From Sulfurimonas sp. (GTDB lineage: Bacteria > Campylobacterota > Campylobacteria > Campylobacterales > Sulfurimonadaceae), in NCBI GenBank assembly GCA_027063505.1, contig JAMORO010000075.1:1-64000 (forward strand): a stretch of 64,000 nucleotides of DNA, in the 5' to 3' direction. The notes beneath the pieces were generated by a model. It was not told the origin of the DNA and ran no database searches. It saw only the letters and a list, made by a program, of their open reading frames with translations. Shown piece by piece: positions 44,124-46,606 of this stretch (the stretch's first letter is position 1; every line of letters begins with the position of its first letter). Made by a program: the position numbers and the translations under genes.

Positions 44124-44900
44124 CTATATACTTAGTCTAATTCCTACAGGGCAGTGATCACTTCCTGTAATGTAGTCTAAGATAAAGGCATCCTCTAAAG
44201 ACTCACAGAGATCTTCACTGATGAAGAAGTAGTCTATTCTCCAGCCTACATTGTTGAGTCGTGCATTTGAGCGGTAAGACCACCAGCTGTATCTATCAGC
44301 TTCATCTCCATTAACATAACGAAAACTATCTACATATCCATGTTCTAAAAGTTTATCTATCCACTCTCTCTCTATTGGTAAAAATCCAGATGTTTTAGAG
44401 TTAGCTTTAGGATTTTTAAGATCCATCTCTTTATGTGCGGTATTTACATCACCACAGATGATGATACTTTTTCCCTCCTTTCTTAAAGCTTCACAGTGAG
44501 CAAGAAGATCATCATAAAACTTCATCTTATAGTCAAGTCTCTCTTGATTTTTCTGACCATTCGGAAAGTAGATATTAAAAAGAACTATATCATCATAATG
44601 AGTCTCAACTATACGTCCTTCATTCATAGTGTCTATATGGTTATCGGTAGAAGTATAATCACTTTTTAACATAGAAAAAGTAGCCGTACCGCTATACCCT
44701 TTTTTCTCTGCAGAGTTTACAGTAAGCTCTACATACTCTTTGTCAAAGAGGCCATAAGGAATTTGCTGGGGAAGAGCTTTTATCTCTTGGAGACATAAGA
44801 TATCTGTATCTCTCTCATCTATCCATTTAAGTGCTTCTTTAGTACCTACAGCACGAATACCGTTAACATTCCACGAGATTATTTCTATTGAGTCTGACAT
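44124..44900 (-). CDS. xth: Exodeoxyribonuclease III
   Basis: ISWNVNGIRA, LCLQEIKA, GDVNTAHKEMDL, RIDYFFIS, GSDHCPVGI. Confidence 0.95.
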   Translation of the reverse strand: MSDSIEIISWNVNGIRAVGTKEALKWIDERDTDILCLQEIKALPQQIPYGLFDKEYVELTVNSAEKKGYSGTATFSMLKSDYTSTDNHIDTMNEGRIVETHYDDIVLFNIYFPNGQKNQERLDYKMKFYDDLLAHCEALRKEGKSIIICGDVNTAHKEMDLKNPKANSKTSGFLPIEREWIDKLLEHGYVDSFRYVNGDEADRYSWWSYRSNARLNNVGWRIDYFFISEDLCESLEDAFILDYITGSDHCPVGIRLSI

Positions 44901-44955: not shown

Positions 44956-45008
44956 TCTCGTTCCCATCGCTCCGCTTCTTTCTCGTTCCCATCGCTCCGA
45001 GTGGGAAT
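44956..45008. repeat. REP-like element: tandem TCTCGTTCCCATCGCTCCG (x2) plus hairpin TTCCCA...TGGGAA
   Basis: Identical 19-bp copies at 44956-44974 and 44981-44999; second copy forms an inverted repeat with TGGGAA at 45002-45007; lies upstream of the RAYT. Confidence 0.8.
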
Positions 45009-45087
45009 GCATATAAATATATGACAAAATGCAATAAAAGTTATACAGTAAAATAATTTCTATTATAATAGTAAAAAGGAAATTATT

Positions 45088-45621
45088 ATGGGAAGAAGTA
45101 GATATAAAGTTCACGAAGTAACTGTTCCATATTTCATTACTTGTACTATTTTACACTGGATACCTATCTTTACTAGGACACAGACAACAGACATAATATT
45201 TTCAAGTCTGAAATACCTCCAAAAAAGTGATAATCTTAAAATACATGCTTATGTCATTTTAGAGAACCATCTGCATATGATAGTTAGTAGTGATGATATA
45301 GCAAAAAGTATGGCACGGTTTAAATCTTTTACAGCAAGAGAAATTATAAACTATTTGAAAGAAGAGAATGCGAAGAGTATTTTAGAACAGTTGGCATTTT
45401 ATAAAAAAGCACATAAAACAAAGAGTGAGTTTCAGCTATGGCAAGAGGGTATGCAACTTAAACAGATACTAAGTGAGCAGATGATGCGAGAGAGAATGCA
45501 GTATATACATAACAACCCTGTTAAACGTGGTTATGTTGATGATGGGGTTCATTGGCGTTATAGTAGTGCTCGAGATTATGAGGGAGTTCAGGGGTTGATT
45601 TTGATTGATAAGGAGTTTTAA
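45088..45621 (+). mobile_element. REP-associated tyrosine transposase (RAYT; IS200/TnpA_REP-like Y1 HUH family)
   Basis: FITCTILHWIPIF, HLH motif in ILENHLHMIVSS, QYIHNNPVKRGYV, HWRYSSARDY. Confidence 0.9.
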
Positions 45622-45632
45622 ATTAGTGATGA

Positions 45633-45655
45633 GTTTCCATGCAGAGCATAGGAAC
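45633..45655. repeat. REP-like hairpin A downstream of the RAYT
   Basis: GTTTC-C-ATGC-AGA-GCAT-A-GGAAC. Confidence 0.75.
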
Positions 45656-45677
45656 TAGAAAAGAGGGATTATAGAGA

Positions 45678-45702
45678 TGCTACCATGCAGAGCATAGTAG
45701 CA
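45678..45702. repeat. REP-like hairpin B downstream of the RAYT
   Basis: TGCTAC-C-ATGC-AGA-GCAT-A-GTAGCA. Confidence 0.78.
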
Positions 45703-45724
45703 AGAGGTGTAGAGAGTTTAGTTA

Positions 45725-46606
45725 TTAAACGAAGTCTACTTTTGTAACATGGTGTTTCATACCAAGTGAATCAGCAGGGCAACCAAGTGCAAGACCTAGC
45801 ATCTGTTGCATATGAAGAACAGGAAGTTCTACATCACGGCCAATAGCCTCTGAAAGGTGATCTGTTTGAGTATCAAGTTTTAGGTGACAAAGAGGACATG
45901 GAGTTACAATCCAGTCAGCATTTTGATCCATAGCTCCTGCAACAACATTACCAGCTAAGATAGCTGAAGTTTTTGGTGCTTGAAGTTCAACATGGAAACC
46001 ACAACATTTGTTCTTCTCTTCATACTGAACACTCTCTCCACCACAAGCGATGATTAAATCATCTAAAGAGCGAGGATTATAAGCATTCTCTGGTGTTTTA
46101 TGTGTTGTGTTTTGAAGCTCTGAAGGGCGAATATTATGACAACCATAAAATGGTGCAATATTAAACTGACTTAGAGGTGTAACAACCATCTCTTTAATCT
46201 TATCAAGACCGATATCATCAATGATAGCATAGAGGAAGTGAGTGATTTGTGAAGTACCTTTGTACTCTAAACCAACTTCTGCTAGCTTTTCATTAACCTT
46301 AGCTTTTAGCTCTGCATTTTCATCTAAACGGTGTTTAGTCATAGCGGTGTTTAGTTGACAAGTATTACAGATAGTTACCATTGTAAGACCATGTTTTTCA
46401 GCATAAGCGATATTTCTAGCATTAAGAACTAGAGATAAAAAGTCATCATAATCTTGTAAGTGAGAAGCACCACAACAAGAAGCCTCTGTTAACTCTACTA
46501 GCTCTATATTTAGTTTCTCAGCAACTGCCATTGTAGACATATACTGCTCAGGAGTACTCTGTTTAGCAGTACAACCTGTAAAAAGTGCGTATTTTAATTT
46601 TTCCAT
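45725..46606 (-). CDS. sdhE: Succinate dehydrogenase/fumarate reductase subunit E-type (HdrB-like CCG domain) protein
   Basis: CCG-type motifs EASCCGASHL, KNKCCGFHVEL, TPCPLCHLKLD; follows sdhB. Confidence 0.87.
   Translation of the reverse strand: MEKLKYALFTGCTAKQSTPEQYMSTMAVAEKLNIELVELTEASCCGASHLQDYDDFLSLVLNARNIAYAEKHGLTMVTICNTCQLNTAMTKHRLDENAELKAKVNEKLAEVGLEYKGTSQITHFLYAIIDDIGLDKIKEMVVTPLSQFNIAPFYGCHNIRPSELQNTTHKTPENAYNPRSLDDLIIACGGESVQYEEKNKCCGFHVELQAPKTSAILAGNVVAGAMDQNADWIVTPCPLCHLKLDTQTDHLSEAIGRDVELPVLHMQQMLGLALGCPADSLGMKHHVTKVDFV

Follow-up and report, generated by a model that had tools for sequence, protein, structure and literature searches.

RAYTs co-evolve with their own REPs, and dispersed pairs of hairpins with their feet directed outward were reportedly described in 2011 by Bertels and Rainey as REPINs, or BIMEs. 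In the E. coli REPtron, TnpA_REP cuts single-stranded REP at a CT on either the 5′ or the 3′ side of the hairpin and depends on the foot to do so (PMC8266576); the solved structure 4er8 contains this enzyme bound to a REP hairpin. TnpA_Y1 subclass 2.6, equivalent to RAYT group 5, is characterized by the motifs NH[LIV]H, WQ and YIH[QN]NP, a median length of 179 aa, a distance near 82 between the HuH motif and the tyrosine, and associated structures termed “atypical” that are without GT[AG]G (Quentin 2018, PMC6006769). The TIRYT transposases of TIRtrons belong mostly to subclass 2.1 with a C-terminal helix-turn-helix, and their repeats mostly share GGGGWSAS (Di Nocera 2013, PMC3733652).

The locus described here lies in a window of 64,000 nucleotides (the whole stretch of DNA that was analysed) on contig C75 of a 2.1-Mb draft Sulfurimonas genome. 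It is probably a degenerate REPtron, consisting of a RAYT framed by cognate hairpins between xthA and an sdhE-like gene. The features are given below, with hairpin scores from R1, a covariance model trained on 72 hairpins that all come from other genomes, with the window excluded, and with DNA fold z-scores calculated on the strand indicated.

44124-44900, minus strand: exonuclease III-like gene (xthA), neighbour of the RAYT on one side
44957..44974, plus strand: partial copy of the left-hairpin 5′ arm and loop (CTCGTTCCCATCGCTCCG) without the 3′ arm, exact 18-nt match
44982..45013, plus strand: left-end hairpin, foot CTCG outward; R1 34.5 bits, E 8e-8; fold z -3.2
45088..45621, plus strand: intact RAYT of 177 aa with HuH motif NHLH and catalytic-tyrosine motif YIHNNP; matches NF047646 and the 4er8 fold
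45628..45658, minus strand: right-end hairpin 1, foot CTAG, partly degenerate; R1 22.5 bits, E 4e-4; fold z -3.1
45674..45704, minus strand: right-end hairpin 2, foot CTTG, perfect 11-bp stem; R1 15.5 bits, E 0.05; fold z -6.0
45725-46606, minus strand: sdhE-like gene, neighbour of the RAYT on the other side

The initial annotation of this DNA had recognized a TnpA_REP-like open reading frame, and this identification is borne out by a match above cut-off to the NCBIfam model for REP-associated tyrosine transposases (NF047646; E 2.2e-28, 99 bits where the cut-off is 80); the Pfam Y1_Tnp model matches only just above its own cut-off. Each of the 41 aligned homologues also hits this NCBIfam model, and across them the columns of H61/H63, Y139 and N143-P144 are invariant, each of these residues being retained in the window RAYT. 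Close protein homologues in named records are from Sulfurimonas MAGs. A predicted structure of the protein (pLDDT 78, pTM 0.80) has 4er8 as its best fold match (E 1.2e-5), followed by IS200/IS605 transposases; 4er8 was also recovered by a profile search of solved structures, and a single-sequence search of solved structures with the RAYT gave no match. The protein thus combines a curated RAYT family model and a TnpA_REP fold with the HuH motif, single catalytic tyrosine and Y-x-x-x-NP signature of REPtron transposases. With NHLH at residue 60, WQ at 118, YIHNNP at 139, a length of 177 aa and a HuH-Y distance of 78, its sequence fits TnpA_Y1 subclass 2.6, or RAYT group 5.

The hairpins constitute a REP-like family in which the stem has 11 bp and the 5′ foot reads CT[N]G in place of GT[AG]G. 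Alignment A1, comprising 72 hairpins from the flanks of RAYT homologues and from loci around dispersed copies, all in other genomes, has the form CT, 11 bp, a loop of 3-4 nt and CATA. Pairing is maintained in 97.5% of its cells, and the covariation score is 0.480 compared with 0.138 +/- 0.012 in shuffled alignments (0/500 as high) and 0.02-0.12 in slid controls; conservation of the foot and outer stem is partly by construction, because sequences were chosen for resemblance there, whereas the inner three pairs, unconstrained by this selection, covary strongly, as does pair 3-28 beside the foot. The CT[N]G foot, in agreement with the atypical flanking structures of subclass 2.6, sets the unit apart from canonical GTAG REPtrons. 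At pair 4-27, 63 of the 72 sequences have G.T and 8 have G-C, a bias partly due to the search consensus; the opposite strand would present an A.C mismatch at this position, so the CTCG-first strand is the one on which the hairpin forms best. Covariation also links the third base of the foot to the 3′ flank (columns 3 and 28 of A1), giving the combinations CTCG/TGCATA, CTAG/CTCATA and CTGG/TCCATA, so that the foot is partly paired; it is possible that this pairing provides a guide-like link to the choice of cleavage site. A second subfamily, CTCGCTCCCA...TGGGAGTGTATA, with a compensatory change at pair 5-26, is found beside the RAYT at six loci (L012, L014, L021, L022, L024 and L030). The hairpins have no match in Rfam, and the 25 matches listed for the motif in the open literature look like chance strings, such as primers.

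R1 ranks the left-end hairpin and those at 45628-45658 and 45674-45704 first, second and third in the window, placing all three in one family and upholding the proposal that REP-like hairpins lie on either side of the gene. The left-end hairpin has zero mismatches to the family foot and outer-stem consensus. The hairpin at 45674-45704, with a perfect 11-bp stem and a 3-nt loop on the minus strand, is weak by score alone, and its assignment rests mainly on position and perfect pairing. Its outer stem differs from that of the other downstream hairpin, and direct reading of the sequence confirms that the changes between the two are compensatory, as had been suggested. The C/A mismatch given as a shared architectural feature came from reading the plus strand: on the minus strand it is a G.T wobble in the hairpin at 45674, and one true C.A mismatch does persist in 45628-45658. 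The inner stems at the two ends of the window unit do not match, being TCG on the left and TGC on the right.

A survey of 96 non-identical RAYT loci places a family hairpin upstream in 88, downstream in 86 and on both sides in 81, with the feet outward, the inverted arrangement seen in the window and in REPtrons. Among 35 Campylobacterota loci the inner stem varies from locus to locus, yet it is identical at both ends in 63%, compared with 11% after shuffling (0/10000). This end-matching persists in 7 of 15 loci after thinning to <75% protein identity, where 1.2 are expected (0/20000), while left ends are identical in only 1-8% of comparisons between RAYTs that are 60-75% alike. Such matching within a locus agrees with the known co-evolution of RAYTs and REPs.

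Dispersal of the hairpins is absent from the genome in question and present in its relatives. A protein search of the genome found one RAYT, at this locus only, and searches with patterns and the covariance model yielded no convincing hairpin outside it; the whole-genome search thus confines both components to this locus, contrary to the earlier suggestion of copies elsewhere. Two further weak model matches were found in this genome, one inside a reading frame (E 0.13) and one between genes (E 1.3), both positions being judged by eye. The latter (L181, G000:C81:18297-18326) is a perfectly paired hairpin, GTTACCAAGTT/AACTTGGTAAC, that seems to lie between genes and may be a relic or a terminator. 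Also in this genome, a fragment with two stops at G000:C6:48266-48430 has weak RAYT similarity (E 3e-4) and is possibly the remnant of another RAYT.

Among 135 genomes of the genus, 25 carry the RAYT and 62 the exact hairpin pattern, for which the controls showed a single match. Carriers of the RAYT have a median of 18 model matches per genome and other genomes a median of 3 (Mann-Whitney p 8e-8, uncorrected for kinship), an enrichment that, with the hairpins flanking both sides of most homologous genes, bears out the pairing of the RAYT with cognate hairpins put forward in the initial annotation. The RAYT-free genomes G079, G056, G037, G010 and G108 hold 19-53 family hairpins (53 in G079 and 42 in G056), indicating that copy number follows carriage of the gene only loosely; these hairpins may be relics left after loss of the gene, reflect gaps in draft genomes or result from the action of another transposase. 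In a sample of adjacent dispersed pairs, 18 of 23 have their feet outward, often about 21 nt apart.

In many relatives xthA and the sdhE-like gene are neighbours about 75-100 bp apart with no RAYT between them, compared with 827 bp in the window, which implies gain or loss of the unit at this site; an empty-site comparison for its exact insertion ends found flanks too diverged to define them. In two other species a RAYT of the same family lies downstream of the same sdhE-like gene but is oppositely oriented relative to that gene (L108 in G113; L114 and L117, two broken copies, in G114), which suggests repeated insertion at one intergenic site.

Two other readings of the unit were considered. 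Because the downstream hairpins sit between convergent genes, and RAYT-free relatives often have a hairpin in the xthA-sdhE gap when inspected by eye, they could be ordinary terminators lying outside any RAYT unit; this is unlikely, as both are recovered by the covariance model where a hairpin of the unit should lie and in the right orientation, and neither has the T-run signature of a terminator. The compact gene, terminal palindromes, related fold and presence in some species only would also be in keeping with an active IS200/IS605-type insertion sequence. Such elements are distinguished by several near-identical copies and a Y-x-x-x-Q motif, however, and the window has a single copy with YIHNNP, of the Y-x-x-x-NP form; the RAYT is single-copy in nearly every genome and its closest structural match is TnpA_REP, making an active insertion sequence very unlikely. 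The degenerate REPtron remains the preferred reading of the locus.

Of particular interest in this unit is the sequence immediately outside the left-end hairpin, earlier described as a 19-bp tandem repeat. A repeat is present, but what is copied is the 5′ half of the hairpin, over 18 nt: 44957-44974 duplicates 44982-44999 exactly, with a period of 25 and the spacer CTTCTTT. Comparable half-copies, consisting of the 5′ arm and loop, accompany 37 of 456 hairpins from 24 loci, with a period of 16-29 and a copied length of 14-21 nt; one-sided half-copies occur in both Campylobacterota and Gammaproteobacteria. All 37 lie outside the CTCG foot, and the mirror arrangement, a 3′ half on the inside, occurs 0 times. 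When counted by half, orientation and side within 27 nt and at <=1 mismatch, the classes contain 23, 1 and six zeros; the polarity is almost complete, at 23:1 and 36:2, no other class within 27 nt exceeding 1, and the few inside cases are half-copies belonging to the next hairpin. In 48 whole genomes the pattern CTCGTTCCCAN{4,18}CTCGTTCCCA gave 32 matches in 13 genomes and the mirror pattern TGGGAATGCAN{4,18}TGGGAATGCA gave 0, in a test that is only partly independent since it includes survey loci, although several matches are on new contigs and 7 of the 32 come from one contig. The half-copies mostly break at the loop or at the start of the 3′ arm. The spacer goes unrepeated in roughly half of the near-exact cases, among them the window, so a simple tandem made by nicking, copying and ligation cannot explain every half-copy. 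A search of the literature for half-palindromes near REPs found no report.

The favoured but unproven cause of these half-copies is foot-specific nicking by the RAYT, which is preferred over replication slippage because the polarity is so strict. Slippage independent of the RAYT, in which a new strand that has copied the 5′ arm and pyrimidine-rich loop re-anneals to the pyrimidine tract immediately upstream of CTCG, is nevertheless an explanation of some plausibility, if short of an even chance. The six bases before CTCG are pyrimidine-rich, at roughly 60-80% C+T per position, the hairpin loop is CTCC/TCCC-like, and the tract is present on the foot side only, which would give the observed polarity; several near-exact cases (L013, L121, L062, L038 and L051) are also clean tandem duplications. 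Against slippage, the polarity is almost complete while microhomology past the spacer is short or absent, and the pyrimidine tract could itself belong to a recognition or cleavage site. Nested insertion, in which a hairpin element entered the loop of a hairpin already present and stranded that hairpin's 5′ half outside the left end of the element, would fit the usual breakpoints, at the loop or the beginning of the 3′ arm, but it predicts equally frequent orphan 3′ halves past the other end, and inverted 3′ halves outside number 0-1 compared with 23-36; the expected orphans are missing and this origin is highly improbable. Deletion between full tandem hairpins was likewise rejected as a source, with few full neighbours in the same orientation compared with 37 half-copies.

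Nicking by the RAYT can be set within a mechanism modelled on E. coli TnpA_REP, which cuts single-stranded REP near the hairpin in a foot-dependent manner. Our inferences cover binding and cutting by the enzyme, the transfer of strands, and how the half-copies arose, the hairpins being the presumed substrates of the RAYT. The enzyme would bind the single-stranded hairpin folded on the CTCG-first strand and cut just 5′ of the foot, producing a 5′-phosphotyrosine end and a free 3′-OH that could be joined to another strand. The RAYT system has probably spread hairpins in relatives, often as feet-outward pairs; in the genome studied here it has not, and the right end is decaying. The half-hairpins outside the foot could then be scars of cutting, left by a nick upstream of the foot, copying to the loop and re-ligation. 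That the RAYT nicks outside the CTCG foot in vivo, and that the 3′ end copies the 5′ arm to the loop before re-ligation to build outward half-hairpin arrays, is a tentative and rather doubtful proposal. If true, these arrays would be genomic footprints of RAYT action that could seed or renew REP-like hairpins, sequence alone would reveal the active strand and the side of the cut, and the mechanism would become testable.

Among described systems, the E. coli REPtron (GTAG REPs, group 2/subclass 2.2; PMC8266576, 4er8) shares with this unit its fold, HuH motif and single tyrosine, inverted flanking hairpins, a 5′ tetranucleotide foot and a single-copy gene. It differs in that the foot here is CT[N]G, the stem is normally without a central bulge, and NHLH and YIHNNP stand in place of DHLH and YIHYNP; half-hairpin copies lie outside the foot here and are not described in the literature consulted. 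Like TIRtrons (PMC3733652), the unit has a tyrosine transposase with non-GTAG terminal inverted repeats, but its repeats are hairpins of another sequence. The dispersed feet-outward pairs resemble REPINs and BIMEs, although here copies number only tens per genome at the most and the stems of the two arms usually differ. Subclass 2.6 is alike in its flanking structures without GT[AG]G and their copies elsewhere in the genome, and the available part of its description gives no hairpin consensus; the subclass is presented as mostly from Bacteroidetes, whereas the present RAYTs are from Campylobacterota and Gammaproteobacteria (PMC6006769). The locus is a unit of a known kind whose class has been little described, and in its own genome it is not dispersed and is partly decayed. 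What marks this class of RAYT is a different foot, a strand-polar hairpin whose G.T pair is conserved, matching of the two ends at a locus, and half-copies on one side, and it is the one-sided copying of half-hairpins that is new compared with these systems and worth following.
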